DNA of 64,000 nt. Origin: Pseudomonas fluorescens (GTDB lineage Bacteria; Pseudomonadota; Gammaproteobacteria; Pseudomonadales; Pseudomonadaceae). The number at the start of each line of letters is the position of its first letter. Positions within the stretch are counted from its first letter, which is position 1. The stretch covers positions 5,068,326 through 5,132,325 of the forward strand of contig NZ_OZ024668.1 of the NCBI RefSeq assembly GCF_902497775.2, read 5' to 3'. The position numbers and the translations under genes were made by a program. Below the pieces are notes generated by a model. The model did no database searches and had not been told where the DNA came from. It saw only the letters and a list, made by a program, of their open reading frames with translations. Below, one piece after another: positions 1-15,241 of this stretch.

Positions 1-944
1 TGATGAACGGCACCGCGGTGATGACCGGCCTGGCCTGCCTGGCATTCGCCCGCGCCGATTACCTGCTCAAGCTCGCTACACGGATCACCGCGCTGAACGT
101 GGTCGCCCTGCAAGGTAACCCGGAGCACTTCGACGAGCGCCTGTTCGCCGCCAAGCCGCACCCGGGGCAAATGCAGGTGGCTGCCTGGTTGCGCCAAGAC
201 CTCGCTATCGACGCACCGACCGCGCCGCTGCACCGCCTGCAGGACCGTTACTCGCTACGCTGTGCGCCGCATGTGCTGGGTGTGCTGGCCGACAGCCTGG
301 GCTGGCTGCGCGGCTTTATCGAAACCGAACTGAACAGCGCCAACGACAACCCGATCATCGACGCCGAAGCCGAACGCGTACTGCACGGCGGGCACTTCTA
401 CGGCGGCCATATCGCATTTGCCATGGACAGCCTGAAGAACCTGGTGGCCAACGTCGCCGACCTGCTCGACCGCCAGCTCGCCTTGCTGGTCGACGTGCGC
501 TACAACCACGGCCTGCCGAGCAACCTGTCGGGCGCCAGCGCCGAGCGGGCGATGCTCAACCATGGCTTCAAGGCCGTGCAGATCGGCGCCAGCGCCTGGA
601 CCGCCGAAGCCCTGAAAAACACCATGCCGGCCAGCGTGTTCTCACGCTCCACCGAGTGCCACAACCAGGACAAGGTGAGCATGGGCACCATCGCCGCCCG
701 CGATGCCCTGCGGGTGCTGGAGCTGACCGAACAGGTCGCCGCCGCCGCCTTGCTGGCCGCCAACCAGGGCGTCTGGCTGCGCAGCCGCGAAGCCGATGCC
801 CGCGACCTGCCGCCAGCCTTGGCCGAAATGCACGCGGCGCTGCTTGAAGAGTTCGCCCCGGTGATCGAAGACCGCGCCCTGGAAAGCGACCTGCGCCTGT
901 GCCTGAGCCGAATTGCCGAACAACACTGGAGGCTGCATGCGTAG
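1..944 (+). CDS. Aromatic amino-acid ammonia-lyase (HAL/PAL/TAL family), 5' end cut by window
   Basis: The C-terminal 313 codons of a MIO-type ammonia-lyase are visible; the Ala-Ser-Gly that forms the MIO cofactor would lie upstream of base 1. Visible family blocks are NGTAVMTG (2-9), QDRYSLRC (80-87), DNPIID (115-120), the helix GGHIAFAMDSL (134-144) and HNQDKVSMG (220-228). The HNQD version of the last block is nearer phenylalanine/tyrosine lyases than classical HutH (QEDHVSM). I infer that it makes a cinnamate or coumarate starter for the aryl polyene built by the downstream genes. It is the first visible gene of a run in which every gene overlaps the next; its stop lies 8 bases inside the thioesterase. 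The family is certain, the substrate is not. Confidence 0.85.
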   Translation, partial: MNGTAVMTGLACLAFARADYLLKLATRITALNVVALQGNPEHFDERLFAAKPHPGQMQVAAWLRQDLAIDAPTAPLHRLQDRYSLRCAPHVLGVLADSLGWLRGFIETELNSANDNPIIDAEAERVLHGGHFYGGHIAFAMDSLKNLVANVADLLDRQLALLVDVRYNHGLPSNLSGASAERAMLNHGFKAVQIGASAWTAEALKNTMPASVFSRSTECHNQDKVSMGTIAARDALRVLELTEQVAAAALLAANQGVWLRSREADARDLPPALAEMHAALLEEFAPVIEDRALESDLRLCLSRIAEQHWRLHA

Positions 945-1362
945 TCAGGGAGTACTGCACGTCGATACCGAAGTGCTGGTGCCGTTCTTCGATGTCGACA
1001 GCATGCTGGTGGTCTGGCACGGGCACTACGTCAAATACCTCGAGGTAGCGCGCTGCGCGCTGCTCGACCACCTCGATCACAACTACCTGCAGATGCAGGC
1101 CTCGGGCTTCGCCTGGCCGGTGATCGACCTGCAACTGCGCTACATGCGTGGCGCCACTTTCGGCCAGCGCCTGAGCGTGCGCGCCAGCCTGGTGGAGTGG
1201 GAGAACCGTCTGAAGATCAACTACCTGATCAGCGATGCCGCCACCGGCGAGCGCATGACCCGCGCCAGCTCCGTGCAGGTCGCGGTCGAAATCGCCAGCG
1301 GCGAGATGCAACTGGCTTCGCCGCAGGTGATGCTCGACGCCGTGAACAAGGTGCTGCCATGA
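937..1362 (+). CDS. Hotdog-fold acyl thioesterase (4HBT/YbgC type) of the aryl polyene operon
   Basis: This 141-residue protein fits the 4-hydroxybenzoyl-CoA thioesterase family. The active-site loop FFDVDSMLVVWHGHYVKYLE (residues 18-37) matches the YbgC pattern in which an Asp (D21 here) acts before a conserved Tyr-x-Lys. The ATG at 937 is chosen because it starts at the family N-terminus; an in-frame ATG at 913 would add eight residues unlike the family. Aryl polyene clusters normally carry such a thioesterase, probably for release or proofreading of carrier-bound acyl chains. It overlaps the lyase by 8 bases and the LolA-like gene by 4 (ATGA). Confidence 0.82.
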   Translation: MRSQGVLHVDTEVLVPFFDVDSMLVVWHGHYVKYLEVARCALLDHLDHNYLQMQASGFAWPVIDLQLRYMRGATFGQRLSVRASLVEWENRLKINYLISDAATGERMTRASSVQVAVEIASGEMQLASPQVMLDAVNKVLP

Positions 1363-1958
1363 AGACGCTGCTGCGTGGCCTGCTGTGCCTCGGCCTGCTG
1401 GCCAGTTGCCCCCTGGCCCAGGCCTTTGGCCTCGATGATCTGAGCAAGCAACTGGGCGAACCTGCGGTCATCAAGGGCCCGTTCATCCAGGAAAAACACC
1501 TGCGCGCCCTCCCGCAGCCGCTGGTGAGCAAAGGCCAGTTCGTGCTAGCCCGTGACCATGGCTTGCTCTGGCTGCTACAAACGCCGCTCAGGCAGGACTA
1601 CCGCCTCAATGCCCAGGGCATCGCCCGCCGCGATCCGTCCGGCTGGCAGATGCTGCCGGGCAAGAGCGCCGGCGCCGAGCAGAACCGCCTGTTCTTCGCC
1701 GTGCTGCAAGGCGACAGCAGTGGCCTGCAGCGTGACTTCGAGCTGAGCCTGCAAGGCGACGCCGCGCACTGGCAACTGCGCCTGACGCCGCGTTCGCTGC
1801 TGCTCAAGCAGGTGTTCAGCCAGATCGATATCGATGGCGGGCGCTACGTCGAACGCATCCAACTGCTGGAAACCCAGGGCGACAGCACCGTATTGCGCAT
1901 GCCATCGAGCAGCAGCGCCAGCCTGACCGACACGGAGCGCCGCGATTTTGCCGAGTGA
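1359..1958 (+). CDS. LolA-like outer-membrane lipoprotein carrier protein
   Basis: The 199-residue product has an N-terminal export signal and a LolA-like body (for example the segment VIKGPFIQEKHLRALPQPLVSK shortened: PFIQEKHLRALPQPL near residues 35-49, matching the FxQ..L start of LolA). It is probably periplasmic and may carry the polyene lipid or a lipoprotein partner across the periplasm, together with the MMPL exporter encoded next. The signal peptide is ambiguous: A-Q-A at residues 20-22 suits signal peptidase I, while L-A-S-C at 14-17 is a good lipobox. Start ATG overlaps the thioesterase stop; its own stop lies 11 bases inside the exporter gene. The chromosomal housekeeping lolA is not in this window. 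Confidence 0.78.
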   Translation: MKTLLRGLLCLGLLASCPLAQAFGLDDLSKQLGEPAVIKGPFIQEKHLRALPQPLVSKGQFVLARDHGLLWLLQTPLRQDYRLNAQGIARRDPSGWQMLPGKSAGAEQNRLFFAVLQGDSSGLQRDFELSLQGDAAHWQLRLTPRSLLLKQVFSQIDIDGGRYVERIQLLETQGDSTVLRMPSSSSASLTDTERRDFAE

Positions 1959-4260
1959 GCGCCTGTTACCACGGCTGTTTTTGCTGCTGCTGATCGCTGT
2001 GCTGGCCCTGGCCGGTTGGCAGTGGCACCGCGCTGCACCCTTGTCTGCCGACCTGATGGCGCTGGTCCCCGGTGCCACCCAGGACCCGCTGGTACAGCGC
2101 GCCGAGCAGCGCATGCAGGAGCCGCTGAACCGCGAGATGCTGGTGCTGGTCGGCCATCCCCAGCGTGACCAGGCCATCGCCCTGGCCCAGCGCCTGGGCG
2201 AGCAATGGCAGGCCAGCGGCTTGTTCGAGAAGGTCCAGTGGAGCCTGCAGACCGACCTGCAGGCACTGCGCGAACAGTTGCTGCAAGGGCGCCTGGCGAT
2301 GCTCGCGCGTGCCGACCGCAGCAGCCTGGTCGACAACCCGCAAGGCTTTATCGAGCAGCGCGTGCAGAGCCTCTACGATCCCTTTGCAGGTTTTAGCCTG
2401 GTGCCGAGCCAGGACGACTGGCTGGGCCTGACCGGGCGCATCCAGAACAGCCAGCCACGCCCTGCTGCGGTGCAACTGGACACCGCCAGCGGCGCGCTGC
2501 TAGCCGAAGCCGACGGCCAGCATTGGGTGCTGCTGCGTGCCCGCACCCTGGGCAACGCGTTCGACATGCAACTGCCCCTGCAGGTCGCCGACCTGCTCGC
2601 CAGCAGCCGGGTTGCAGCCGACCAGAGCGGCGCGCGCCTGCTGGCTGCCAGTGGCTTGCTGTATGCAGCCAACGGCCAGCGCCAGGCCAGCCAGGAAATC
2701 ACCTGGGTCGGCGGCGGCGCCACCGTGGGCATCCTGTTGCTGTTGCTGCTGGCGTTCCGGCGCCTGCGGGTGTTGCTGGCGTTCGTGCCGGTGCTGGTCG
2801 GCATGCTGTTCGGTGCGGTGGCTTGCGTGGCGCTGTTCGGCCAGATGCATGTGATGACCCTGGTGCTCGGCTCAAGCCTGATCGGCGTCGCCGTCGACTA
2901 CCCGCTGCACTATCTGTCCAAGAGCTGGAGCCTGCGCCCCTGGCAGGCCTGGCCGGCGCTGCGCCTGACCTTGCCGGGCCTGAGCCTGAGCCTGGCCACC
3001 AGTTGCATCGGCTACCTGGCCCTGGCCTTCACGCCGTTCCCGGCCCTGACCCAGATTGCCGTGTTTTCCGCTGCCGGCCTGATCGGCGCCTATCTCAGCG
3101 CCGTGTGCCTGCTGCCGGCATTGCTCAAGGGTATCGACCTGCAGCCCGCACAATGGCCGCTGCGCATTGCCCAATGGTTGGTGGACCTGCGCCTCAAGCT
3201 ACTGGGCAAGGTCCCCAGCCCGGTCCTGCTCGGCCTGCTGATCCTGTTCTGCGCAGCCGGCCTGTGGCAGTTGGACAGCCGCAACGACATTCGCCAGTGG
3301 GTCGGCAGTCCGCCGCAACTGCTCGAAGAAGCCCAGGCCGTGGCGCGCATTACCGGCTACCAGCCCACCAGCCAGTTCTACCTGGTGCGCGGCGCCGACC
3401 AGAGCCAATTGCTGGCGCGCCTGCAAAGCCTCGGCGCACGCCTGGACGAACTGATTGCAACCGACAAGCTCAAGGGCTACATGGCCCTCAGCCAACTGGT
3501 TGCCAGCCCCGCCGAGCAGCAACAGGTTCGCGATGCGCTGAGCACGCTGCCGCTGCAACCGCTGCTGGCCCTGGGCGTCCCGCAAAGCGCGTTACAGGCG
3601 GAACTGGCGCAAATCCAGGCATTGCCTACCCTCGACATCGATCACGCCCTCAGTGGCCCGCTGGGCGAACCCTGGCGCACCTTGTGGCTGGGTGCCGACG
3701 GTCAGGGCGTGGCCGCCATCGTCAGCCTGCAGGGCTTGAACGATCCGGCATTGCTGCGCCTGCAAGCCGACGACCTCGACGGCGTGCAACTGGTCGACCG
3801 CCTCGGCGACCTCAACCGAGTGTTCGCCGCGACCCAGGTCAGCGCCGCCGAGCTCAAGCTGTTGTCGTGCGCGTTGATCGTGGTGCTGCTGATCCTGCCA
3901 TTCGGCCTCGGCGGTGCCCTGCGCATCGTCGCCCTGCCGCTGCTTGCCGCGCTGTGCAGCCTGGCTTGCCTCGGCTGGCTGGGCCAGCCGCTGACCCTGT
4001 TCAGCCTGTTCGGCCTGCTGCTGGTGACCGCCATCAGCGTCGACTACGCGATCCTCATGCACGAGCAGATCGGCGGCGCCGCCGTCAGCCTGCTCGGTAC
4101 CCTGCTCGCGGCGACCACCACCTGGCTGTCGTTCGGCCTGCTGGCGGTGTCGAGCACCCCGGCGGTGAGCAACTTTGGCCTGGCGGTCAGCCTCGGCCTG
4201 GCTTTCAGCTTCGTCCTGGCGCCCTGGGCGGCCAGCGGCCACAAGGAAGTGTCGGCATGA
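1948..4260 (+). CDS. MMPL/RND-family exporter of the aryl polyene operon
   Basis: This 770-residue inner-membrane protein has an N-terminal membrane helix, a periplasmic domain starting with LSADLMALVPG, a first membrane block (about residues 250-400) containing GVAVDYPLHYLSKSW, a second periplasmic domain, and a second membrane block (about 640-760) containing AISVDYAILMHEQ. Two such VDY motifs are the proton-relay signature of MMPL transporters. The start is a TTG at 1948, overlapping the LolA-like gene by 11 bases; I see no better in-frame start. MMPL proteins move lipids or lipid-linked products, so its likely role is extraction of the aryl-polyene lipid from the inner membrane, handing over to the LolA-like carrier. 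Confidence 0.85.
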   Translation: MPSERLLPRLFLLLLIAVLALAGWQWHRAAPLSADLMALVPGATQDPLVQRAEQRMQEPLNREMLVLVGHPQRDQAIALAQRLGEQWQASGLFEKVQWSLQTDLQALREQLLQGRLAMLARADRSSLVDNPQGFIEQRVQSLYDPFAGFSLVPSQDDWLGLTGRIQNSQPRPAAVQLDTASGALLAEADGQHWVLLRARTLGNAFDMQLPLQVADLLASSRVAADQSGARLLAASGLLYAANGQRQASQEITWVGGGATVGILLLLLLAFRRLRVLLAFVPVLVGMLFGAVACVALFGQMHVMTLVLGSSLIGVAVDYPLHYLSKSWSLRPWQAWPALRLTLPGLSLSLATSCIGYLALAFTPFPALTQIAVFSAAGLIGAYLSAVCLLPALLKGIDLQPAQWPLRIAQWLVDLRLKLLGKVPSPVLLGLLILFCAAGLWQLDSRNDIRQWVGSPPQLLEEAQAVARITGYQPTSQFYLVRGADQSQLLARLQSLGARLDELIATDKLKGYMALSQLVASPAEQQQVRDALSTLPLQPLLALGVPQSALQAELAQIQALPTLDIDHALSGPLGEPWRTLWLGADGQGVAAIVSLQGLNDPALLRLQADDLDGVQLVDRLGDLNRVFAATQVSAAELKLLSCALIVVLLILPFGLGGALRIVALPLLAALCSLACLGWLGQPLTLFSLFGLLLVTAISVDYAILMHEQIGGAAVSLLGTLLAATTTWLSFGLLAVSSTPAVSNFGLAVSLGLAFSFVLAPWAASGHKEVSA

Positions 4261-5417
4261 GTATTGTGTTGTTCTGGACCCTGGCCCTGGCCCTGTTCTG
4301 GATCGCCAGCGAGTTGGGGCGGCGCCTGGGACTGATCCCGATTGTCAGCCAGTTGCTGCTGGCGACCCTGGGCCTGCCGCTGCTGATGCTGTTCTGGGTC
4401 GAGCCACATTGGCAACTCAGCGGCGCCGCGCTGGTGGCGCCGTCCTGGTTGAAAACCTTGTACGGCCTGAGTTTCGCCCTGCTGCTGGGGCATATTCTGG
4501 CGGACGTGGTGGAGCTGAAATTCGACCGCCAGAGCCTGAAGATCGCCCTGCCCAGCTTCTTCGTCCCCTTTGCCTGTGGCCTGGCCTGCGGCGCGTTGTT
4601 GCTGGCGCAGCAGCCCTGGCTGGCCACCCTGGCCCTCGGCCTGGTGTTCGCCATCACCGCCATCCCGGTGCTCTACCTGTACCTGCGCAACATCGACTAT
4701 CCGCCCGCGGCAACCCGCCGCCTGATGCAATCGGCGATCCTCATCGACCTGACCTGCTGGCTGCTGTTCGGCCTGGGCAAAGGCAGCCTCGACCCCGCGA
4801 GCTTGCTGCTGCCACTGCTCGGGGCCTGCCTGCCCATGCCGCTGTACGCCCTCGGCGTGCGCCGACCCTGGGTCTACAGCCTGGGCTTTTTCGCCCTGCT
4901 GTTCGTCGCCGAACACTACCGGCTCAATGCATTGATCTTCGGAATCGGCTACCTGTGCTGCCTGGCCTGGCTCAAGCTGGCGCTGCACATGCCGCTGTCG
5001 ACGCTGTGGATAAAACGCCTGCAGAACGGCATCGCCATCCCGTTGATCCTGACCTTCGGCATCATCCAGATCGATATCCACAACGTGCTTCAGGGCTTTG
5101 AAGCCATCCAGTTGAGTGCCTTGCTGCTGTTGCCGATCGTCAGCAAGCTGCTCGGCAACTGGCTAGGCCTGTGCTGGGCGACGCCGTCGTTCGCCGGCGC
5201 GAGCAAATGGCGGGAGAGCCTGCTGCTCAATATTCGCGGCTTGAGCGAGATCGTCTTTCTCAACCTGCTGCTGCAACAACAGCTGATCAGCCCGGCGCTG
5301 TACTTCGCGCTGATGCTGATGAGCCTGGTCGCCACGCTGATGCCCGCGCTGGCCGGCCTGCACCGGATTCCATTGAAGTCTGCCCAACCGGCAAGGAGGC
5401 CTTATGCCAAACACTGA
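4257..5417 (+). CDS. CPA2 antiporter-like polytopic membrane protein
   Basis: The 386-residue protein is almost entirely hydrophobic helices. Its layout follows monovalent cation:proton antiporters of the CPA2 type: GLIPIVSQLLLATLGLP near the N-terminus, LGLVFAITAIPVLYLYLR (about 127-144), the core SAILIDLTCW (159-168), and LLNIRGLSEIVFLN near residue 330. CPA2 proteins usually have Asp-Asp in the core helix; here it is Ile163-Asp164, so only the second Asp remains. It may exchange a cation for protons or couple proton flow to pigment export; neither is shown by sequence. Start ATG overlaps the exporter stop (ATGA) and the stop lies 14 bases inside the flavoprotein gene. Confidence 0.7.
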   Translation: MSIVLFWTLALALFWIASELGRRLGLIPIVSQLLLATLGLPLLMLFWVEPHWQLSGAALVAPSWLKTLYGLSFALLLGHILADVVELKFDRQSLKIALPSFFVPFACGLACGALLLAQQPWLATLALGLVFAITAIPVLYLYLRNIDYPPAATRRLMQSAILIDLTCWLLFGLGKGSLDPASLLLPLLGACLPMPLYALGVRRPWVYSLGFFALLFVAEHYRLNALIFGIGYLCCLAWLKLALHMPLSTLWIKRLQNGIAIPLILTFGIIQIDIHNVLQGFEAIQLSALLLLPIVSKLLGNWLGLCWATPSFAGASKWRESLLLNIRGLSEIVFLNLLLQQQLISPALYFALMLMSLVATLMPALAGLHRIPLKSAQPARRPYAKH

Positions 5418-6651
5418 ACTGCAACAGCGGCAGGTACTGATCATCGGCGCCGGCCCGTCCGGCGCCATCGCCGGGGCCCTGCTCAAGCGCAATGGCCACG
5501 ATGTGCTGATCATCGAGCGCCAGCGCTTCCCGCGTTTTTCCATCGGCGAGAGCCTGTTGTCGCACTGCATCGACTTCGTCGAAGAAGCCGGGATGCTTCC
5601 GGCCCTCGAAGCGGCGGGCTTCCAGTGCAAGAACGGCGCGGCCTTCGCCTGGGGCGACGAATACAGCGCCTTTGATTTCGGCGACACCTTCAGCAATGGC
5701 AAGCCGAGTACCTTCCAGGTCCAGCGTGCCCAGTTCGACCAGTTGCTGGCCGACCAGGCCGCAGCCCAGGGCGTGGAAATCCGCTACGAAGAAGAGATCA
5801 TCGCCGCCGACCTCGAGCGCCCGCGCCCGCAGGTCCGCGTTCGTCGCCTGGATGGCAGCGAGTACTGCGTCGAGGCCGAATTCGTCCTTGATGCCAGTGG
5901 TTATGGCCGCGTGCTGCCGCGCCTGCTGGACCTCGAAGCGCCGTCGAACTTCCCGGTGCGCCAGGCCGTGTTCACCCACATCGAAGACCGCATCGACCAC
6001 CCGGCTTTCGACCGGGAAAAGATCCTCATCACCACCCACCCGCAGCACCGCGATATCTGGTTCTGGACCATCCCGTTCAGCAACGGCCGCTGCTCCCTGG
6101 GCGTGGTCGCCGCCGCCGAGCACTTTGCCGCCGCGCCGGCTGACCTGGATGCCTGCCTGAAGGACTTCGTCGCCCAGACGCCAAGCCTGGCCAAGGTGCT
6201 GGCCAACGCCGTGTGGGACACCCCGGCGCGGACCATCGGCGGCTACTCGGCCAACGTCAAGACCCTGCACGGCCCGGGCTTTGCCCTGCTCGGCAACGCC
6301 GCCGAGTTCCTCGACCCGGTGTTCTCCTCCGGGGTGACCATCGCCATGCGCTCGGCGAGCATGGCCGCCGGCGTGCTGCACCGTCAGTTGCAGGGTGAAA
6401 GCGTCGACTGGCAGCACGAGTTCGCCGAGCCGCTCAAGCGCGGCGTCGATACCTTCCGCGCCTACGTCGAGGGCTGGTACAACGGCAGCTTCCAGGACGT
6501 CATCTACCACCCGGCGAGCTCGCCGGAAATCCGCGCGATGATCAGCTCGATCCTAGCCGGCTACGCCTGGGACCTGCGCAACCCGTTCGTCAGCGAACCC
6601 AAGCGGCGCCTGCGCATGCTCGCTGAAGTCTGTGCAAGGACGGCGGCATGA
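5404..6651 (+). CDS. FAD-dependent oxidoreductase of the flavin-halogenase family
   Basis: The 415-residue protein begins with a Rossmann FAD motif GAGPSG (15-20), followed by FSIGES (45-50), GFQCKNGAAFAWG (72-84) and the motif WFWTIP (219-224), which matches the WxWxIP signature of flavin-dependent halogenases. Lys76 sits where phenol/carrier-type halogenases have their catalytic lysine. GNAAEFLDPVFSSGV (about 298-312) is the second FAD-contact block of this superfamily. It could halogenate or hydroxylate the aryl head group, or reduce the polyene; related proteins are often annotated tryptophan halogenase or geranylgeranyl reductase. RBS AGGAGG lies just before the ATG. The methyltransferase gene overlaps its stop by 4 bases. 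Confidence 0.75.
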   Translation: MPNTELQQRQVLIIGAGPSGAIAGALLKRNGHDVLIIERQRFPRFSIGESLLSHCIDFVEEAGMLPALEAAGFQCKNGAAFAWGDEYSAFDFGDTFSNGKPSTFQVQRAQFDQLLADQAAAQGVEIRYEEEIIAADLERPRPQVRVRRLDGSEYCVEAEFVLDASGYGRVLPRLLDLEAPSNFPVRQAVFTHIEDRIDHPAFDREKILITTHPQHRDIWFWTIPFSNGRCSLGVVAAAEHFAAAPADLDACLKDFVAQTPSLAKVLANAVWDTPARTIGGYSANVKTLHGPGFALLGNAAEFLDPVFSSGVTIAMRSASMAAGVLHRQLQGESVDWQHEFAEPLKRGVDTFRAYVEGWYNGSFQDVIYHPASSPEIRAMISSILAGYAWDLRNPFVSEPKRRLRMLAEVCARTAA

Positions 6652-7382
6652 AATTCCTCAGCGACAGCTACGTCGAGGAAACCCGCTTCGGCTTCTGGTT
6701 CCTGCGCAGCCACACCTGGCAGCACCATGTGCTGCGGGTGGCGATCAACGACCTGCGCCGGCTGTTCGACGCGCCGCTGCCGCACGCGCCGGTGCTGCTC
6801 GATGCCGGCTGCGGCCAGGGCAAGTCGTTCCAGTACCTGCAGCAGGTGTTCGCCCCCGGCCAGTTGCTGGGCACCGACGCCGACCCGCACAGCCTCGAAC
6901 TGAGCCAGGCCGAGGCCGGGCGCCTGGGCCTGAATGTCGAGCTGCGCGGCAGTGACTGCGCGGCCTTGCAGTTTGCCGACAGCAGCGTCGATATCCTGTT
7001 TTGCCACCAGACCTTTCACCACCTGGTCGAGCAGGAAAAGGCCCTGGCCGAGTTCTACCGGGTGCTCAAACCCGGTGGCTACCTGCTGTTCGCCGAGTCC
7101 ACCGAAGCCTATATCGACACCTGGGTTATCCGCTGGCTGTTCCGTCACCCCATGCACGTGCAGAAAAGTGCCGGGCAGTACCTGCAGATGCTCCGCGACC
7201 AAGGCTTCGAGTTCGGCGCGCAGAATGTCTCCTACCCCTATCTGTGGTGGAGCCGTTCCAGCGACTTCGGCCTGCTCGAACGCTTTGGCCTGCGCAAGCC
7301 GCCAGCGGTCGGCCAGCGCGAAGAAACCCTGGTCAACGTAGTTGCCCGCAAACCCTTGAAGCCAACCGAGCCGAGTGCATGA
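6648..7382 (+). CDS. SAM-dependent class I methyltransferase of the aryl polyene operon
   Basis: The 244-residue protein has motif I VLLDAGCGQG (49-58) for S-adenosylmethionine binding and a post-motif block YRVLKPGGYLLFAE (about 139-152), both typical of class I methyltransferases (UbiE/COQ5-like). HQTFHHL near 121 occupies the motif IV region. Aryl polyenes often carry a methylated aryl ring, so ring or O-methylation of the head group is the likely role; the acceptor cannot be read from sequence. ATG overlaps the upstream stop by 4 bases (ATGA) and the next gene overlaps its own stop by 4. Confidence 0.82.
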   Translation: MKFLSDSYVEETRFGFWFLRSHTWQHHVLRVAINDLRRLFDAPLPHAPVLLDAGCGQGKSFQYLQQVFAPGQLLGTDADPHSLELSQAEAGRLGLNVELRGSDCAALQFADSSVDILFCHQTFHHLVEQEKALAEFYRVLKPGGYLLFAESTEAYIDTWVIRWLFRHPMHVQKSAGQYLQMLRDQGFEFGAQNVSYPYLWWSRSSDFGLLERFGLRKPPAVGQREETLVNVVARKPLKPTEPSA

Positions 7383-7864
7383 AACGCCTGTTGCTGATCC
7401 TCGCCTTCGCCCTGTTGAGCGCCTGCGCCAGCCGTGCGCCGCTGCCCGCACAAGTACCGGCGCTGACGCTGCCGATGCAGTTGCATATCCAGCGCGAACA
7501 GGCAGGAGAACGTCAGGACTGGCTGCTGGTGATCCAGCGCGAGGACGCCAGCCTGCGCTGGTCGCTGTTGGACTTGCTGGGCATTCCGCAAGCCCGGCAG
7601 TTGCTCAACCAGGGGCAGTGGCACGCCGACGGCCTGCTGCCGCCCAACCCGGCTGCACGTGAATTGTTCGCCGCCCTGCTGTTCGCCCTGACCCCGGCCG
7701 AGCAGCTGCAAGCGCTCTACCCCGGCGCCCGTCAGCAAGGCCAACAGCGCTGGCTGGGTGAACGCTGGCGCGTCGACTACCGACAAGCCGACGACTTCAC
7801 CTTGAACCTAGGCCAGGGCCTGCGTTATCTAGTCAGCCCACTGCCCAGCGAGAACACGCCATGA
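7379..7864 (+). CDS. DUF3261 family outer-membrane lipoprotein
   Basis: The 161-residue product starts with a short signal peptide and a clear lipobox L-S-A-C at 13-16, so the mature protein should be lipidated on Cys16. The body fits DUF3261, a small family found mostly inside aryl polyene and related pigment clusters. The mature C-terminal half (GARQQGQQRWLGERWRVDYR) resembles LolB-like lipoproteins in layout. With the LolA-like carrier and MMPL exporter in the same operon, it is a reasonable candidate for the outer-membrane receptor of the pigment. Overlaps both neighbours by 4 bases. Confidence 0.75.
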   Translation: MKRLLLILAFALLSACASRAPLPAQVPALTLPMQLHIQREQAGERQDWLLVIQREDASLRWSLLDLLGIPQARQLLNQGQWHADGLLPPNPAARELFAALLFALTPAEQLQALYPGARQQGQQRWLGERWRVDYRQADDFTLNLGQGLRYLVSPLPSENTP

Positions 7865-9048
7865 CCGCTTATCTCAATGCCCTGGGCCTGGTCTGTGCCC
7901 TCGGTCGCGGCCAGGCCGACGTCGCCCGCAAGCTGTTTGCCGGCGACTGCTCAGGCATGCGCATCGAAGACGGTTGGGTGCCGCAACGCAGCCTGCCGGT
8001 GGCAGGCGTGCACGGTGAGCTGCCCGAGCCGCAGGCCCATCACAGTCGCAACAACCAGCTGCTACTTGAGGCTTGCCTGCAGATCAGCGCAGCGATTGAA
8101 GCGGCCATCGCCCGCTTTGGCCGCCAGCGCATCGGTATCGTCCTGGGTACCAGCACCTCGGGCATCAAGGAAGCCAGCGACGGCATCGCCCACTACCTGC
8201 GTGAACAAGCGTTTCCGGCCAGCTACGACTATGCCCAGCAGGAGCTCAGTGCTCCGGCCAATTTCCTCGCCGACCGGTTGCAACTGAGCGGCCCGGCCTA
8301 TGTGATTTCCACTGCCTGCACCTCCAGCGCCCGGGCCTTGATGAGTGCCCGGCGCCTGCTCGATCTCGGTGTTTGCGATGCAGTGATTTGCGGCGGGGTC
8401 GACAGCCTGTGCAAGCTGACCCTCAACGGCTTCAGCGCCCTGGAAGCCGTCAGCGCCGAGCGCTGCAATCCGTTCTCGGTCAACCGTAACGGCATCAACA
8501 TCGGCGAAGCTGCAGCGCTGTTCCTGATGACCCGTGAAGCCAACCACGAAGGTTCAAGCATCGCCTTGCTCGGCGCTGGCGCCAGCTCCGATGCGCACCA
8601 TATCTCGGCGCCAGAGCCCAGCGGCAAAGGCGCCTTGCAGGCCATGCGCAAGGCGCTGGACAATGCTCGCCTGCAACCTGCACAGATCGACTACCTGAAC
8701 TTGCACGGCACCGCCACCCGGCACAACGACGCCATGGAAAGCCTGGCCGTGCATGAACTGTTCGGCAGCCAGTTGGCCTGCTCGTCGAGCAAGCCGATGA
8801 CCGGCCATACCCTGGGTGCCGCTGGCGCCCTGGAAGCGGCGTTCTGCTGGCTGAGCCTTTGCGCCGACAATGCCCAAGGGCGCCTGCCACCGCATGTCTG
8901 GGATGGCGCGGCTGACCCGCAGCTGCCGGCCCTGAACCTGGTCGATGCCAGCCAGCGCCTACCGGCCCAGGGCCCGCGGCGCCTGATGAGCAACTCGTTC
9001 GCCTTCGGCGGCAACAATGTCAGCCTGATTCTCGGAGACACGCAATGA
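7861..9048 (+). CDS. Beta-ketoacyl-ACP synthase (ApeO-like ketosynthase)
   Basis: The 395-residue thiolase-fold protein keeps the full Cys-His-His set: nucleophile C153 in STACTSS, H282 in NLHGTATRHND and H316 in MTGHTLGAAGALE. It should therefore catalyse decarboxylative chain extension on an acyl carrier protein. It opens a four-gene block of ketosynthase, dehydratase, ketoreductase and ketosynthase, the same order as apeO-apeP-apeQ-apeR of characterised aryl polyene clusters, where these enzymes form an iterative type II polyene synthase. Overlaps of 4 bases on both sides point to translational coupling. Housekeeping FabB/FabF is unlikely given the context. Confidence 0.88.
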   Translation: MTAYLNALGLVCALGRGQADVARKLFAGDCSGMRIEDGWVPQRSLPVAGVHGELPEPQAHHSRNNQLLLEACLQISAAIEAAIARFGRQRIGIVLGTSTSGIKEASDGIAHYLREQAFPASYDYAQQELSAPANFLADRLQLSGPAYVISTACTSSARALMSARRLLDLGVCDAVICGGVDSLCKLTLNGFSALEAVSAERCNPFSVNRNGINIGEAAALFLMTREANHEGSSIALLGAGASSDAHHISAPEPSGKGALQAMRKALDNARLQPAQIDYLNLHGTATRHNDAMESLAVHELFGSQLACSSSKPMTGHTLGAAGALEAAFCWLSLCADNAQGRLPPHVWDGAADPQLPALNLVDASQRLPAQGPRRLMSNSFAFGGNNVSLILGDTQ

Positions 9049-9515
9049 TCACCTGGCCACTGGCCGAACTGCTGCCTCATGCCGGCGATATGATCCTCAT
9101 CGATCAGGTCGAGTCGTTCGATGAAGAGCAGATTCATACCCACCTGACCGTGCGCCCCGGCGGCCTGTTCAACCGCGCCGACGGCAGCCTGCCGGCCTGG
9201 GTCGGCATCGAACTGATGGCCCAGAGCGTGGCCGCCTACGCCGGTTGCCGCGCACGCCAGAAAGGCCAGCCGGTGGAGCTGGGCTTTTTGCTTGGCACGC
9301 GTAAATTCGAATGCAATGTCGAACATTTCCCTGCCGGTGCCCACTTGCGTATCCATGCCCTACGCTCGCTCGAAGACGACAACGGCATGGGCGTGTTCGA
9401 GTGTCACCTGCGCGGCCAGGGCATCCATGCCATGGCCCGTTTGAACGTTTTTCGCCCGCCGCAAGTGACCAGCTACCTGGCCGAAGCGGGCCCAGAGGAG
9501 TCCCCCCATGACTGA
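9045..9515 (+). CDS. 3-hydroxyacyl-ACP dehydratase, hotdog fold (ApeP-like)
   Basis: The 156-residue protein has the FabA/FabZ-type dyad: H12 in LLPHAGDM and E56 in WVGIELMAQS. FRPP follows the C-terminal strand. It should dehydrate the 3-hydroxyacyl-ACP to the trans-2-enoyl form; since no enoyl reductase is seen beside it, double bonds would accumulate and give a conjugated polyene. It overlaps the upstream ketosynthase by 4 bases and the ketoreductase by 8. The short C-terminal tail (from about residue 145) is not conserved in the family as I know it. Confidence 0.85.
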   Translation: MITWPLAELLPHAGDMILIDQVESFDEEQIHTHLTVRPGGLFNRADGSLPAWVGIELMAQSVAAYAGCRARQKGQPVELGFLLGTRKFECNVEHFPAGAHLRIHALRSLEDDNGMGVFECHLRGQGIHAMARLNVFRPPQVTSYLAEAGPEESPHD

Positions 9516-10236
9516 CACCATCCTGGTCACCGGTTCCAGCCGTGGCATTGGCCGGGCCATCGCCCTGCGCCTGGCGCGCGCCGGTTTCGACCTGGTCCTG
9601 CATTGCCGAAGCGGGCGCAGTGAAGCCGACGCCGTTGCAGAAGAAGTCCGGGGCCTGGGCCAGCAAGCCCGCGTGCTGCAGTTCGACGTCGCCGACCGCG
9701 CCGCCTGCGCCGCCATTCTCAGCGATGACGTGGAAACCCATGGCGCCTACTACGGCGTGGTCTGTAACGCCGGCCTGACCCGCGACGGCGCCTTCCCGGC
9801 ACTGACCGAAGAAGACTGGGACCAGGTGCTGCGCACCAACCTGGACGGTTTCTACAACGTCCTGCACCCGTTGATGATGCCGATGATCCGCCGGCGCAAA
9901 GCCGGGCGTATCGTCTGCATCACCTCGGTATCGGGCATGATCGGCAACCGCGGCCAGGTCAACTACAGCGCCTCCAAGGCCGGTGTGATCGGCGCCGCCA
10001 AAGCCCTGGCGATCGAGCTGGGCAAGCGCAAGATCACCGTCAACTGCGTTGCCCCGGGATTGATCGATACCGCCATGCTCGACGAGCACGTGCCGGTCGA
10101 AGAGCTGCTGAAGATGATCCCGGCGCAGCGCATGGGCACCCCGGAAGAAGTCGCCGGCGCGGTGAATTTCCTCATGTCGGCCGAAGCCGCCTACATCACC
10201 CGCCAGGTGCTGGCAGTCAACGGAGGCCTGTGCTGA
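9508..10236 (+). CDS. 3-oxoacyl-ACP reductase, SDR family (ApeQ-like, FabG-like)
   Basis: The 242-residue protein is a classical short-chain dehydrogenase: cofactor motif TGSSRGIG (8-15), NAG at 87-89, and the catalytic Ser140 (ITSVSG), Tyr153 and Lys157 (YSASK). The size and ending (YITRQVLAVNGGLC, near the FabG GGMYM end) fit NADPH-dependent 3-oxoacyl-ACP reduction. Its location between a dehydratase and a ketosynthase makes it the ketoreductase of the polyene synthase. An AGGAG ribosome binding site lies at 9495-9499. The next gene's ATG uses the last base of its stop codon. Confidence 0.9.
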   Translation: MTDTILVTGSSRGIGRAIALRLARAGFDLVLHCRSGRSEADAVAEEVRGLGQQARVLQFDVADRAACAAILSDDVETHGAYYGVVCNAGLTRDGAFPALTEEDWDQVLRTNLDGFYNVLHPLMMPMIRRRKAGRIVCITSVSGMIGNRGQVNYSASKAGVIGAAKALAIELGKRKITVNCVAPGLIDTAMLDEHVPVEELLKMIPAQRMGTPEEVAGAVNFLMSAEAAYITRQVLAVNGGLC

Positions 10237-11462
10237 TGAAACGTGTGGTCGTCACCGGCATGGCCGGTATCACTTCGCTGGGCAGCGACTGGCAGACCAT
10301 TGCCGGCAACTTCGCCAACAACCGCAGCGGCATCCGCCGCATGGACGAATGGGACCGCTTCGAGGAGCTCAACACGCGCCTGGCCGGCCCCATCGATGAC
10401 TTCAAGGTGCCCGCTGGCTGGACCCGCAAGCAACTGCGCAGCATGGGCCGGGTCTCGCGCCTGGCCGTGGCGGCAGCACAGAACGCCCTGCGCGACGCCG
10501 GCCTGCTCGATGACCCGTCGATCCGCGACGGGCGCATGGGCGTGGCCTGCGGCTCGTCCACCGGTAGCACCGACGAGATCAAGGCGTTTGGCAACATGCT
10601 GCTCAACTCGGTGGCCGAAGGCCTCAACGCCAATTCCTATGTGCGGATGATGCCGCACACCACCGCGGCCAATATCAGCATCTTCTTCGGCCTCACCGGG
10701 CGCCTGATCCCCACCTCCAGCGCTTGTACCAGCGGCAGCCAGGGCGTCGGCTACGCCTATGAGGCGATCAAGTTCGGCCGCCTGCCGCTGATGCTCGCCG
10801 GCGGCGCCGAAGAGCTGTGCCCGACCGAAGCCATGGTGTTCGATGCGCTGTACGCCACCAGCCTCAAGAACGACACCCCGCACAAGAGCCCGAGCCCCTA
10901 CGACAGTGGCCGCGATGGCCTGGTGATCGGTGAAGGCGGCGGCATGCTGGTGCTTGAAGAACTTGAGCACGCACTGGCCCGTGGCGCGCACATCTATGCC
11001 GAAATCGTCGGCTTTGGCAGCAATGCCGACGGCCAGCACACCACCCGCCCGGAGCAGGCAACCATGCGCCGGGCCATGGAGCTGGCGCTAGAAGATGCAA
11101 GCCTGGCGCCCGAGGCCATTGGCTACGTCAACGGTCATGGCACCGCCACCGAGCAGGGCGATATCGCCGAAACCCTGGCCACCAGCAGCCTGTTCGGCCC
11201 GCGCATGCCGATCAGCTCGCAAAAAAGCTTCCTCGGCCACACCCTGGGTGCTTGCGGCGCGTTGGAGTCCTGGTTCAGCATCGAGATGATGAACAGCGAC
11301 CGCTATGTGCACACCCTCAACCTTGAGCACATCGACCCGCGCTGCGGCGAGCTGGACTACCTGTGCGGCGAGTTTCGCAGCATGAGTCACGACTACGTGA
11401 TGAACAACAACTTCGCCTTTGGCGGGGTCAACACCTCGCTGATTTTCCGTCGCTGGACCTGA
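10236..11462 (+). CDS. Beta-ketoacyl-ACP synthase (ApeR-like, FabF type)
   Basis: This 408-residue KAS II-type enzyme has nucleophile C164 (SSACTSG), H301 (NGHGTATEQGD) and H335 (FLGHTLGACG), so it should be a catalytically complete elongating ketosynthase and not a chain-length factor. I start it at the ATG at 10236, nine bases after the GGAGG at 10222-10226; a GTG two codons earlier is too close to that site. It is the last gene of the overlapping run. The second ketosynthase of such clusters is thought to share elongation or starter selection with the first, but sequence alone does not divide the tasks. Confidence 0.9.
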   Translation: MKRVVVTGMAGITSLGSDWQTIAGNFANNRSGIRRMDEWDRFEELNTRLAGPIDDFKVPAGWTRKQLRSMGRVSRLAVAAAQNALRDAGLLDDPSIRDGRMGVACGSSTGSTDEIKAFGNMLLNSVAEGLNANSYVRMMPHTTAANISIFFGLTGRLIPTSSACTSGSQGVGYAYEAIKFGRLPLMLAGGAEELCPTEAMVFDALYATSLKNDTPHKSPSPYDSGRDGLVIGEGGGMLVLEELEHALARGAHIYAEIVGFGSNADGQHTTRPEQATMRRAMELALEDASLAPEAIGYVNGHGTATEQGDIAETLATSSLFGPRMPISSQKSFLGHTLGACGALESWFSIEMMNSDRYVHTLNLEHIDPRCGELDYLCGEFRSMSHDYVMNNNFAFGGVNTSLIFRRWT

Positions 11463-11487
11463 TCTGAAACCTGCTGGAGAGAAAGGA

Positions 11488-11931
11488 ATGTCTTCATTGA
11501 TTCGCGCCGCTGTCCTCGGCCTGGCCCTGGCGGGCCTGGCTGGCTGTACCTCGAAACCGGTACTGACCCCGCAAGAGCAGCTTGTAGCCGGGCACAACTA
11601 CAGCCACGAGCAGGTGCAGCAGGCCATCCTCAAGGCCGTGGCCGAGCGCGGCTGGACCGCCCGCAAGGTCACCCCGAACCTGATCCAGGCCGACATCCTG
11701 GTACGCAATACCTTCTATGCCGCCGTCGACATCCGCTACAGCGTCAGCAACTTTCGCATCAACTACCGCGACAGCCGCGAGCTGGGCTACAAGAACGGCA
11801 AGATTCACCGCAACTACAACCGTTGGGTGAACAACCTCGACAAAAGCATTGTGCAGGAGTTGAACAGGCAGAATGCGCAAAACATGGTGCAACGCGCCAT
11901 CAATGAACAGCACTCGAACACTGTTAAATAA
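11488..11931 (+). CDS. Small lipoprotein of unknown function
   Basis: The 147-residue product has a 19-residue signal with lipobox L-A-G-C (17-20), so the mature protein should be lipid-anchored at Cys20. The mature part is basic and Tyr/Asn-rich (for example NFRINYRDSRELGYKNGK, about 87-104) and ends in a charged helix. I do not recognise a named function; similar short lipoproteins occur widely in Pseudomonas. It starts 25 bases after the ketosynthase stop behind a GGAGAGAAAGGA site, so it may be the tail of the pigment operon or a separate conserved gene read through from it. Confidence 0.75.
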   Translation: MSSLIRAAVLGLALAGLAGCTSKPVLTPQEQLVAGHNYSHEQVQQAILKAVAERGWTARKVTPNLIQADILVRNTFYAAVDIRYSVSNFRINYRDSRELGYKNGKIHRNYNRWVNNLDKSIVQELNRQNAQNMVQRAINEQHSNTVK

Positions 11932-11946
11932 TCAAGGAACGACACA

Positions 11947-12393
11947 ATGCGTCTGAAAACCTGGACCGCCACCGCCACTTTGCTGCTCTGCGCCCTGCCC
12001 GGCCTCAGCCAGGCCCGCGATACCACCCACTACCTGCCGTTCGAGAAAGTCGTGACGCAGATGACCGCCGAGAACAAGCTCGACGGTTCGGTGAAGTTCT
12101 ACCTGGCCGGCGTGCAGCCCAAGGGCAAGGTCACCGTGGTCAGCCCGGCGGCGGTCACCAACAAGAAAACCAACGCCTTCAACAAGACTGACGAAGCAGC
12201 CTGTGAATGGGCCCTGCAATCGGCACTGCTGACCATGCAGGACGCCGCTCGCAAGGTCGGCGCCAACGCCGTGACCAACATCAGCAGCTACTACAAGCGC
12301 AACGAGCGCAAGGACGCCACCACCTACGAATGCCACGCCGGCGCAGTCATGGCGGGCGTGGCGCTGAAGGGCGACTTGGCCAAGGTCCAGTAA
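11947..12393 (+). CDS. Small exported protein of unknown function (RcsF/YbjQ-like segment)
   Basis: The 148-residue product has an N-terminal signal peptide likely cleaved after S-Q-A (residue 23). The mature protein holds two cysteines, one in ACEWALQ and one in YECHAG, which could form a disulfide in the periplasm. The segment ARKVGANAVTNISS resembles the conserved part of RcsF and YbjQ folds. I recall homologues labelled excinuclease ATPase subunit in Pseudomonas genomes, which this size and export signal make untenable. It starts 15 bases after the lipoprotein stop, so the two are probably co-transcribed, and it ends one base from the convergent LysR gene. Confidence 0.72.
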   Translation: MRLKTWTATATLLLCALPGLSQARDTTHYLPFEKVVTQMTAENKLDGSVKFYLAGVQPKGKVTVVSPAAVTNKKTNAFNKTDEAACEWALQSALLTMQDAARKVGANAVTNISSYYKRNERKDATTYECHAGAVMAGVALKGDLAKVQ

Positions 12394-12394
12394 C

Positions 12395-13294
12395 TCAGCT
12401 GCGTTCCAGGGCCTGCCGGGTCAACAGCTCGGCAAAGGCCCTGGCCATCGCCGACGGCGCAGCGCGGCGCTGCACCAGCCACACAGCAGTCACCGCGTCG
12501 TCGTCGAGCAAGGTCCGGTACACCACGCCGTCGATGCGCATGCGCTGAAACGACGCCGGCAGTACCGACACCCCCAACCCCGCCGCCACCAGGCCGATGA
12601 TGGTCATCGCCTCCCCCGCCTCCTGGGCAAAATGCGGGCTGAACCCGGCCTGACGCGCCAGGCTCAGCAATTGCGCATGCAAGCCACTGCCGTAACTGCG
12701 CGCAAAGAACACGAAGGGTTCGTGGGCCAACTCGGCCATGTGCACCCCGGCTTCGCTGCCCCGAGCTAACGGGTGGGCCGCATTGATCACCGCCACCAGC
12801 GGCTCGCGAAACAGCTCGACGGCAATTAGGCTGTCGGGCAAGGCCAACGGCCGCATCAGGCCGACTTCGATCGACTCGTCGAGCAAGGCATCGGCCACGT
12901 CGCGGCTGCTCATTTCCTTGAGGTTCAAGTGCACTGCCGCAAAGCGCTGGCGAAAGGCGTGAATGGCCTTGGGGATGCTCGAATTGAACGGCGCCGAGGA
13001 AGTGAAGCCGATCTTCATCTCGCCCAGTTCGCCCAGTTGCGCTCGCCGGGCGACATCGGCGGCCTTGTCGACTTGCGCCAGCACCAGCCGCGCCTCTTCA
13101 AGGAACAGGCGCCCGGCCTCGCTGAGCTCGACCCGACGACTGGTACGCTCGAACAAGCGTGCCCCCAGCTCCTGTTCCAGGGCCTGGATCTGCTGGCTCA
13201 ACGGCGGTTGGGAGATCCCCAGGTTCTGCGCCGCCCGGCCAAAATGCAGCTCTTCGGCGACGGCAATGAAGTAGCGCAGATGACGCAATTCCAT
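12395..13294 (-). CDS. LysR-family transcriptional regulator
   Basis: The 299-residue protein starts with the LysR winged-helix domain (MELRHLRYFIAVAEELHFGRAA, shortened here to residues 1-20 as the key helix start, then ISQPPLSQQI about 27-36), followed by a linker helix and a substrate-binding domain of the BenM/CatM type. It is divergent from the MFS gene at 13416 across 121 bases, the usual geometry for a LysR protein controlling the divergent gene in response to a small ligand carried by the transporter. No ligand can be named. Its stop is one base from the stop of the convergent small exported protein. Confidence 0.9.
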   Translation of the reverse strand: MELRHLRYFIAVAEELHFGRAAQNLGISQPPLSQQIQALEQELGARLFERTSRRVELSEAGRLFLEEARLVLAQVDKAADVARRAQLGELGEMKIGFTSSAPFNSSIPKAIHAFRQRFAAVHLNLKEMSSRDVADALLDESIEVGLMRPLALPDSLIAVELFREPLVAVINAAHPLARGSEAGVHMAELAHEPFVFFARSYGSGLHAQLLSLARQAGFSPHFAQEAGEAMTIIGLVAAGLGVSVLPASFQRMRIDGVVYRTLLDDDAVTAVWLVQRRAAPSAMARAFAELLTRQALERS

Positions 13295-13415
13295 GGTGGC
13301 TCCAATAGGTCGTAAAACCTCTTAAACAGGTCGAACAATATATTGGAAATGATCATTAGCCAGCTATATGCTTTTTTCACTGCCTGACAGGCCGTAGCGC
13401 CCACCGAGGTCACCC
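13295..13415. promoter_or_regulatory. Divergent LysR/MFS control region with candidate operator
   Basis: This 121-base AT-rich region must hold both divergent promoters. It contains the 10-base palindrome AATGATCATT (13348-13357) flanked by TGG and CCA, giving an imperfect inverted repeat of the size LysR proteins bind, and a nearby TATAT (13366-13370) that could serve as the -10 region for the MFS gene. This is a pattern-based suggestion without a known consensus for this regulator. Confidence 0.4.
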
Positions 13416-14678
13416 GTGAAAACTGCTGTTGCGCCACACGCCCACGAATTACCCGTGGCTCCCCTCGACGAAATCGTCGCTACTCTCAACGAAAGCTGGA
13501 TCGAGAAAGGCACCCCGGCCTTTATGCGCACCGTGCTGGCGCTGTTCTGCGGCGGCTTTGCCACCTTTGCCCTGCTGTATTGCGTGCAGCCGATGATGCC
13601 GCTGCTGTCCCACGAGTTTTCGATCAGCGCCGCGCAGAGCAGCCTGATCCTCTCGGTATCCACCGGCATGCTGGCATTCGGGCTGTTGATCACCGGGCCG
13701 ATTTCTGACCGCATCGGGCGCAAGCCGGTGATGGTCTTCGCCCTGTTTTGCGCAGCGCTGTGCACCATCGTCAGCGCCCTGATGCCCAGTTGGCATGGCG
13801 TGCTGCTGACCCGCGCGCTGCTCGGGCTGTCGCTCAGCGGCCTGGCGGCGGTGGCCATGACTTATCTGAGCGAAGAAATCCACCCCCAGCACATCGGTCT
13901 GGCCATGGGCCTGTACATCGGTGGCAACGCCATCGGCGGCATGAGCGGGCGGCTGATCACCGGGGTACTGATCGACTTCGTCAGCTGGCACACGGCGATG
14001 CTGGTGATCGGTGGCCTGGCGCTGATTGCAGCGGCGGTGTTCTGGAAGATCCTCCCCGAATCGCGCAACTTCCGCCCGCGCTCGCTGCACCCGCGCAGCC
14101 TGCTTGATGGCTTCACCCTACACTTTCGCGATGCCGGCCTGCCGTGGCTGTTCCTGGAAGCCTTCCTGCTGATGGGCGCGTTCGTCACCCTGTTCAACTA
14201 CATCGGCTATCGCCTGCTGGCCGAGCCCTATCACATGAGCCAGGCGCTGGTCGGGCTGCTGTCGGTGGTGTACCTGTCGGGGATCTACAGCTCGGCGCAG
14301 ATCGGCGCCCTGGCCGATAAGCTGGGCCGGCGCAAGGTGTTCTGGGCAACGATTTTGCTGATGTTCAGCGGCTTGCTGATGACCCTGCTTGGCCCCTTGC
14401 TGCTGATAATCGTCGGCATGCTGGTATTCACCTTCGGCTTTTTCGGCGCGCATTCGGTGGCCAGCAGCTGGATCGGTCGCCGGGCGACCAAGGCCAAGGG
14501 CCAGGCGTCGTCGTTGTACCTGTTCAGCTATTACGCAGGGTCGAGTGTGGCGGGCACGGCGGGCGGGGTGTTCTGGCACCAGGCGGGATGGAACGGCATC
14601 GGCCTGTTCATTGGCAGCTTGCTGGTGGTGGCGTTGCTGGTGGCGTTGCACTTGAGCCGGTTGCCGGCCAAGGCTTGA
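13416..14678 (+). CDS. Major facilitator superfamily transporter, 12 TM (YnfM/AraJ-like)
   Basis: The 420-residue protein has an unusually long hydrophilic N-terminus (about 35 residues) and twelve predicted membrane helices. The MFS motif A is seen as GPISDRIGRKPV in loop 2-3 and a weaker repeat, GALADKLGRRKV, in the second half. Length and motif fit drug:proton antiporter or arabinose-efflux-like permeases (YnfM group). Control by the divergent LysR gene is likely. The start is GTG at 13416, three codons after a GAGGTCACC segment; a downstream start after the hydrophilic leader cannot be excluded. REP elements follow its stop. Confidence 0.85.
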   Translation: MKTAVAPHAHELPVAPLDEIVATLNESWIEKGTPAFMRTVLALFCGGFATFALLYCVQPMMPLLSHEFSISAAQSSLILSVSTGMLAFGLLITGPISDRIGRKPVMVFALFCAALCTIVSALMPSWHGVLLTRALLGLSLSGLAAVAMTYLSEEIHPQHIGLAMGLYIGGNAIGGMSGRLITGVLIDFVSWHTAMLVIGGLALIAAAVFWKILPESRNFRPRSLHPRSLLDGFTLHFRDAGLPWLFLEAFLLMGAFVTLFNYIGYRLLAEPYHMSQALVGLLSVVYLSGIYSSAQIGALADKLGRRKVFWATILLMFSGLLMTLLGPLLLIIVGMLVFTFGFFGAHSVASSWIGRRATKAKGQASSLYLFSYYAGSSVAGTAGGVFWHQAGWNGIGLFIGSLLVVALLVALHLSRLPAKA

Positions 14679-14683
14679 ATACC

Positions 14684-14748
14684 ATCGCGGGACAAGCCCG
14701 CTCCTACAGATGACAACCATCCCTGTAGGAGCGGGCTTGCCCCGCGAT
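14684..14748. repeat. REP element pair (inverted)
   Basis: Two 26-base arms, 14684-14709 and 14723-14748, are reverse complements with a single mismatch and share the core CGCGGG(A/G)CAAGCCCGCTCC. They are separated by 13 bases, forming a long stem-loop between the MFS gene and the convergent YgiW gene. This is the REP family repeated throughout the window. Confidence 0.92.
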
Positions 14749-14753
14749 GCTTT

Positions 14754-15101: not shown

Positions 15102-15170
15102 GGTGAAGATCCTGTCTGGGTTTCGATGGAGCCAGATTACCCAGGCAGGCTGAATTGAACCTTAATAGCA

Positions 15171-15241
15171 GTGGGAGCGGGCTTGCCCCGCGATCGCGCT
15201 GGTTCAGTCAGATCGCAATCGCGGGGCAAGCCCGCGCCTAC
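15171..15241. repeat. REP element pair (inverted)
   Basis: Arms at 15171-15194 and 15218-15241 carry the REP core in opposite orientation around a 23-base centre. The second arm runs directly up to the hemE stop codon (complement of CTA at 15241-15243), so the hairpin lies immediately after the hemE coding region and may protect or end its mRNA. Confidence 0.9.

Follow-up and report, generated by a model that had tools for sequence, protein, structure and literature searches.

A probable aryl polyene operon of Pseudomonas fluorescens with overlapping genes and a variable three-gene slot

The window is a stretch of 64,000 nucleotides from Pseudomonas fluorescens (assembly GCF_902497775.2, contig NZ_OZ024668.1, positions 5,068,326 to 5,132,325, forward strand), and its first 11,462 positions hold part of a probable aryl polyene (APE) operon. 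In its main features this segment is an ordinary, standard APE cluster. The run is predicted to build an aryl polyene and send it to the outer membrane, and three optional genes would decorate the pigment or serve the membrane. These three adjacent genes lie between apeM and apeN, have no Escherichia coli counterpart, and are referred to here as the slot. They encode an antiporter-fold membrane protein, a halogenase-like flavoprotein, and a predicted methyltransferase. An APE cluster of this kind has already been reported for P. donghuensis; the variable slot is the part for which no description was found in the literature searched.

The genome is a single contig of 5.97 Mb, and 10.3 kb of upstream DNA was added to the window for the operon analysis. 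The full run is composed of 20 genes over 17.9 kb, from L009:3850 to window position 11462, and the window segment makes up its downstream two thirds. The order is apeC, apeD, apeE, apeF, apeG, apeHI, glycosyltransferase, acyltransferase, ammonia-lyase, apeK, apeL, apeM, antiporter-fold gene, flavoprotein, methyltransferase, apeN, apeO, apeP, apeQ, and apeR. ApeC is a predicted chain-length factor, ApeE and ApeF are the two carrier proteins, and ApeHI is a ligase fused to a dehydratase. Because a ParA-type gene upstream of apeC is on the other strand, apeC is taken as the first gene, and the 20 genes are likely one operon. An initial annotation, made from the window only, had placed the start of the cluster (carrier proteins, ligase, and a further ketosynthase) outside the window and had proposed that the lack of an upstream acyl carrier protein or ligase would speak against an APE operon. 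These genes were found in the upstream DNA, where apeC, apeD, apeE, apeF, apeG, the fused apeH-apeI, and the glycosyltransferase and acyltransferase genes lie directly before the window segment.

The APE-type assignment made in that annotation is borne out by BLASTP against the E. coli operon, in which 15 of the 16 apeC-apeR proteins, all but apeN, have a counterpart. A ketosynthase-chain length factor pair (ApeO, ApeC) and a second ketosynthase, ApeR, are present, as are two carrier proteins with an adenylating ligase, the ApeQ reductase, and the ApeI and ApeP dehydratases (PF22817, PF22818, BLAST). Alignments of the locus copies show that the active-site motifs of the ketosynthases, carrier proteins, ketoreductase, and lyase are conserved; the ApeO motif STACTS is found in 108/108 copies. 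Of the LolA/RND/DUF3261 transport set, apeL and apeM are matched by BLAST, and apeN is a tentative assignment with only a DUF3261 match at E 0.0093. The nearest named operons are those of P. donghuensis, P. wadenswilerensis, and P. rubra. No Rfam element was found at the gathering threshold in positions 1-16000.

The E. coli cluster APE_Ec (apeA-apeR) has in common with this operon the apeC-apeR order, the L-M-N transport genes (apeN tentatively), overlapping genes, and an ATGA at apeM/apeN. It differs in that an ammonia-lyase is added here, apeA and apeB are without counterpart, and three extra genes stand between apeM and apeN; the four genes without an E. coli counterpart are those for the ammonia-lyase, antiporter-fold protein, flavoprotein, and methyltransferase. 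The carrier-protein genes are 9 bases apart here and 11 in E. coli. Fusion states are opposite (L009:6404-9745 versus L185:6377-9745): the ligase and dehydratase are fused here and separate in E. coli, whereas the glycosyltransferase-acyltransferase (apeJ) is two genes here and fused in E. coli.

Related clusters have been described in other bacteria, and a Pseudomonas pan-genome study includes APE among its categories (PMC8719888). P. donghuensis SVBP6 has an APE cluster in which 40% of genes are similar to APE_Vf of Vibrio fischeri, ammonia-lyase included (PMC5851621). The comparison with V. fischeri is that paper's, and its passages on the cluster mention no halogenase, antiporter, or slot. 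The xanthomonadin clusters of Xanthomonas combine an APE core with a halogenase gene, and their products vary in methylation and bromination (PMC3691225). Their starter comes from chorismate via XanB2 (PMC3949708), and the likeness of their halogenase to the one considered here is by description only. The arcuflavin clusters of Azoarcus sp. BH72 carry APE-type genes together with arcA, predicted to encode a halogenase, and arcG, predicted to encode a Na/H antiporter (PMC3949708). They differ in being composed of two unlinked APE-type loci plus a dialkylresorcinol part, and arcG is likened to the window protein by description only. In the literature listings, of which only the papers cited here were opened, no evident match was found for an APE halogenase or antiporter in Pseudomonas. 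A search of PMC10104596 for APE halogenase or antiporter words gave no match, and a literature search for ammonia-lyase with arylpolyene found no paper. Literature sought on gene deletion at overlaps consisted of papers on translational coupling and on how overlaps arise.

Overlaps run through the whole segment. The eleven window junctions, from ammonia-lyase/apeK to apeQ/apeR, were recomputed as overlaps of 8, 4, 11, 4, 14, 4, 4, 4, 4, 8, and 1 bases, equal to the values first annotated. The accompanying claim that every junction overlaps holds for the visible part only, since apeE/apeF carries a 9-base gap and the full run thus has 18 of 19 junctions overlapping. Junction lengths were compared over 104 loci with differing coverage, one of which (L151) has no operon; eight loci (L142-L149) were omitted, of which all but L147 and L148 duplicate named loci. 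With the start codon taken as the one nearest to the window's homologous start, a choice biased towards the window's overlaps, the apeE/apeF gap of 9 bases recurs in 96 of the 97 loci where both genes are seen. On the same basis, apeF/apeG overlaps by 4 bases in 97/97 loci, apeO/apeP by 4 bases in 101/102, and apeQ/apeR by 1 base in 101/101.

Other junctions are looser. Gaps of more than 20 bases, with sizes of 23-314 bases, are found at apeHI/glycosyltransferase (48/95), apeK/apeL (41/101), and methyltransferase/apeN (40/89). Repeat-like inserts occupy these three places; they were read in L112 and L100 and judged by gap size at many other loci. The inserts read in L112 and L100 resemble repetitive extragenic palindromic (REP)-type repeats. 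In both of these loci the frame runs open through the apeK/apeL insert, which would still permit apeL to begin at its overlapping ATG.

Overlapping frames have previously been noted in the E. coli APE cluster (PMC8253772). By the present count, 11 of the 15 E. coli apeC-apeR junctions overlap. In most prokaryote groups, close to 15% of co-directional gene pairs overlap (PMC6728339). The share here exceeds that of a random gene set, the figure of ~15% being a general one for prokaryotes and not this genome's own count. Since the cluster is a standard APE cluster and E. coli APE genes commonly overlap as well, the chain of overlaps is ordinary in itself and typical of this cluster family. With stops and starts overlapping, ribosomes could re-initiate from one gene to the next, and translational coupling is likely in this run.

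The slot varies across the genus. Among 398 Pseudomonas genomes, where a gene is scored as present if it matches at any place in the genome and adjacency is seen only in fetched loci, apeM is found in 315, the flavoprotein in 297 (every one with apeM), and the antiporter in 205, with 3 weak matches set aside. Two of these weak matches (G447, G661) are on other contigs, and the third, in G454, is a decayed remnant: short pieces of the antiporter-fold gene at about 6990-7290 of L184 adjoin an intact flavoprotein gene. The 315 apeM genomes are composed of 200 with antiporter and flavoprotein, 97 with flavoprotein only, 1 with antiporter only, and 17 with neither; one further genome has the antiporter without apeM.

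At the level of loci, 109 apeM loci were compared, including the window and one sister-genus locus. All three slot genes are present in 78, flavoprotein and methyltransferase in 11, antiporter and flavoprotein in 8, methyltransferase only in 4, flavoprotein only in 2, antiporter only in 1, and none in 5; the combination of antiporter and methyltransferase is absent. Because 80 of these loci were found through the antiporter gene, the set over-represents loci that carry it. Antiporter-less loci were taken as 20 from the top of the match list, of 114 apeM genomes without a strong antiporter match. On a quick FastTree tree of 108 rows, the minimum number of state changes is 12 for the antiporter, 7 for the flavoprotein, and 12 for the methyltransferase. 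Because slot genes occur in only some species, the pigment chemistry is likely exchangeable. Since genomes with anywhere from none to all three of the slot genes occur naturally, the role of each gene can be tested directly, and the series is a good example of gene gain or loss in overlapping operons.

The operon of G461 (L183), which is basal to the other Pseudomonas rows in the tree, has the antiporter-fold gene without flavoprotein or methyltransferase. G572 (C1 and C32) has two apeM copies, one in an operon whose slot is empty (L135) and one on another contig beside antiporter and flavoprotein genes.

Both edges of the slot are ATGA joints. On the left, apeM and the first slot gene share ATGA at 4257..4260 (plus strand), and this 4-base overlap is found in 62 of the 83 loci with the antiporter gene beside apeM. 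On the right, the methyltransferase and apeN share ATGA at 7379..7382 (plus strand), with a 4-base overlap in 42/89 loci. Where the slot is fully empty (L122, L123, L125, L135, and L141), apeM and apeN meet in a 4-base ATGA overlap in 5/5 loci, and the E. coli record has the same shared ATGA. In L122, the sequence left of the ATGA resembles the window's apeM end and the sequence right of it resembles the window's apeN start. Loss is the simpler reading for L122 and L123 because each sits within a group whose other members have filled slots (support 93 and 97).

The slot changes by whole genes, and at ATGA joints the loss of a gene need leave no gap. Fully and partly empty slots give a contrast, in that joints are clean in 8/9 cases where both edges can carry ATGA (apeM-apeN, and apeM-methyltransferase with 3/4) and in 0/11 where one edge lacks it (apeM-flavoprotein). 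These counts include related loci several times over, and only 2/8 flavoprotein-apeN joints are clean. The pattern fits deletion between ATGA copies because the antiporter/flavoprotein junction is a 14-base overlap (72/83 loci) and not ATGA. By extension, the ATGA overlaps may be ready-made joints at which tailoring genes enter or leave the slot, so that decoration changes and the chain stays unbroken, and most operon-bearing Pseudomonas may thereby make unrecognised halogenated aryl polyenes. This extended proposal is put forward as a conjecture and is unlikely as a whole.

An alternative, whose chances fall a little short of even, is that the overlaps are inherited genome compaction, that the slot changes by ordinary homologous recombination between related operons, and that the ATGA joints have no role. 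Overlaps are common in the E. coli APE cluster as well, many joints are ragged, and clean joints would follow equally from recombination within apeM and apeN, the flanks that the operons share; the flavoprotein-apeN joints fit ATGA deletion poorly. The contrast between clean and ragged joints is what speaks for deletion between ATGA copies over recombination.

The first slot gene, at 4257..5417 (plus strand), encodes the antiporter-fold membrane protein. It was initially labelled CPA2-like. The predicted structure supports that label, and the Pfam antiporter profiles do not: no Pfam family matches at E up to 10, which is why the name antiporter-fold is used here instead of CPA2. In Foldseek and VIA-align comparisons the model falls with NapA, NHA2, and SOS1 and has a NapA-type fold over most of its length, at a predicted local distance difference test (pLDDT) score of only 73.8. 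Identity to an ordinary CPA2 protein from another genus is 26.9%, and the antiporter profile has no sequence match in the PDB. An ion antiporter fold is thus predicted. In this fold, paired residues of transmembrane helix 5 (TM5) include the ion-binding Asp, being DD in NapA and ND in CPA1. An Asp in the TM5 region is found in 87/87 copies and is preceded by Ile in 86, although it is uncertain by one residue how the copies align with ordinary CPA2 proteins. One alignment had suggested that the essential aspartate was lost; with its gap shifted into the loop that precedes the helix the aspartate is back in place, and no such loss is claimed.

The draft genome G593 has lost apeM and the rest of the operon except the antiporter-fold gene (L151 2756-4012, minus strand). 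Its surroundings are those of the window operon, with ParA to one side and LysR/MFS genes to the other; also left are a 46-base match to the leader (80%) and the final bases of apeM. In the window, a divergent LysR-type regulator and MFS transporter lie downstream of the operon at 12395-14678, the same pair that is beside the orphan gene in G593. The orphan frame is open for 372 codons versus 386 in the window. Its ratio of nonsynonymous to synonymous substitution (dN/dS) is 0.09-0.16 against the six nearest relatives; compared among themselves, the operon copies of five of these relatives give 0.06-0.15. G593 has 11 silent and 3 non-silent private codon changes, and its nearest relative has 20 and 2. 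On this evidence the work of the antiporter-fold protein may be partly independent of the pigment, although the operon may simply have been lost recently.

An alternative is that the antiporter-fold gene is a free-standing ion-homeostasis gene riding in the operon and unrelated to the pigment, a reading that is possible but doubtful. G593 favours it, with the limit that much of the divergence behind its dN/dS may predate the loss, as does G461, where the antiporter is present without the other two slot genes. Distribution argues the other way: 201 of the 202 genomes with a strong antiporter match also have apeM, and 368 other class-level genomes yield only two weak matches, both in loci without APE genes. 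No DNA-level match to the antiporter gene was found on plasmids. An idea that antiporter and flavoprotein form a dependent pair was dropped, the independent-pairs test giving p 0.375 and G461 and G593 being exceptions.

The second slot gene, at 5404..6651 (plus strand), overlaps the first by 14 bases. Its label of flavoprotein can be sharpened to halogenase-like, since it exceeds the cut-off of Pfam Trp_halogenase, carries the motifs of such enzymes, and has halogenases among its nearest structures. Against the NCBIfam CmlS model it scores 155.9 bits (cut-off 900). The nearest solved structures by sequence and fold are 3nix first and halogenases next. The motif names used for flavin-dependent halogenases follow PMC7336383. 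In 99 copies, including the window's and one from a sister genus, GxGxxG is found in 99, the active-site lysine in 99, WxWxIP in 99, and Fx.Px.Sx.G in 98. Nine copies from other genera have GxGxxG in 8 (one gapped), and the lysine, WxWxIP, and Fx.Px.Sx.G in 9 each. The position of the lysine was read from an alignment to 8zop and is presumably the catalytic one. The protein is likely a halogenase, and if it does halogenate, the 297 genomes carrying its gene could make halogenated pigment. That it is instead a hydroxylase or reductase of the same fold, leaving the pigment hydroxylated or otherwise oxidised, is somewhat unlikely given the halogenase ranking after 3nix and the conserved motifs, although flavin hydroxylases come close behind halogenases in the fold ranking.

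The third slot gene, at 6648..7382 (plus strand), likely encodes an S-adenosylmethionine-dependent methyltransferase (PF08241, E 9.9e-25) and overlaps the flavoprotein gene by 4 bases. The reading as a relocated ApeB was rejected, with no similarity beyond a best BLASTP E of 0.49 to E. coli ApeB.

From the gene content and order, overlaps, slot variation, and motifs observed, together with the predicted folds, a pathway may be inferred. The ammonia-lyase would convert tyrosine (or phenylalanine) to a cinnamate-type starter, which the ApeH part of ApeHI would load on ApeE/ApeF. ApeR would start the chain and ApeO-ApeC would extend it, while its reduction and dehydration would fall to ApeQ, ApeP, and the ApeI part. 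The flavoprotein would halogenate the carrier-bound ring, and the methyltransferase would methylate the ring. ApeK, ApeD, the glycosyltransferase, and the acyltransferase would release the product and attach it to lipid, and ApeL, ApeM, and ApeN would carry it outward.

Several points weigh against this pathway and against the proposed use of the joints. The pigment, the enzyme activities, and the single transcript are predictions from genes. The apeN assignment is weak: the gene has no BLAST match to E. coli apeN and reaches only DUF3261 (PF11659) at E 0.0093, under cut-off, and is placed by fitting position and size. The raw association of antiporter and flavoprotein (Fisher p 1.7e-7) is not significant over independent pairs, with about 4 same, 1 opposite, 5 unchanged, and a median p of 0.375. 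To these are added the closeness of flavin hydroxylases, the joints that are not clean, and the antiporter gene kept in G593 without the pathway, which suggests a role that is not purely pigment-related.

The remaining window genes, all on the plus strand, are those of a standard APE cluster, and their initial identities were confirmed. The weak points are apeM, apeN, and the antiporter-fold gene, which have poor or no Pfam score and were placed by other evidence. The 3' part of the aromatic amino acid ammonia-lyase gene is at 1..944 (PF00221, E 4.9e-159), its start being 595 bases upstream of the window. The best NCBIfam score of the lyase is to a tyrosine ammonia-lyase model, under its cut-off. 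The 4-methylideneimidazole-5-one (MIO) triplet ASG is found in 105/106 copies, the remaining one being a gap, and the protein belongs to the aromatic lyase family. At what we take to be the selectivity position, FH or YH is found in 105/106 copies (one gap) and in 8/8 from other genera; no specificity is read from it.

The thioesterase gene apeK is at 937..1362 (PF13279; 47% to E. coli apeK), and the LolA-like carrier gene apeL is at 1359..1958 (PF03548; 36% to E. coli apeL). The MMPL/RND-type exporter gene apeM, at 1948..4260, has a TTG start and is 28% identical to E. coli apeM (E 1.5e-64), with a Pfam MMPL match only at E 8.7. The apeN-type lipoprotein gene (DUF3261) is at 7379..7864. The last four genes keep the apeOPQR order, as annotated: ketosynthase apeO at 7861..9048 (49% to E. 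coli), dehydratase apeP at 9045..9515 (37%; PF22817 ApeP-like, E 1.9e-21), ketoreductase apeQ at 9508..10236 (56%), and ketosynthase apeR, the last gene, at 10236..11462 (54%). Among the loci compared, L047 comes from a record titled as a Paucimonas metagenome-assembled genome, has a Pseudomonas-type operon, groups with P. japonica, and is probably misnamed.

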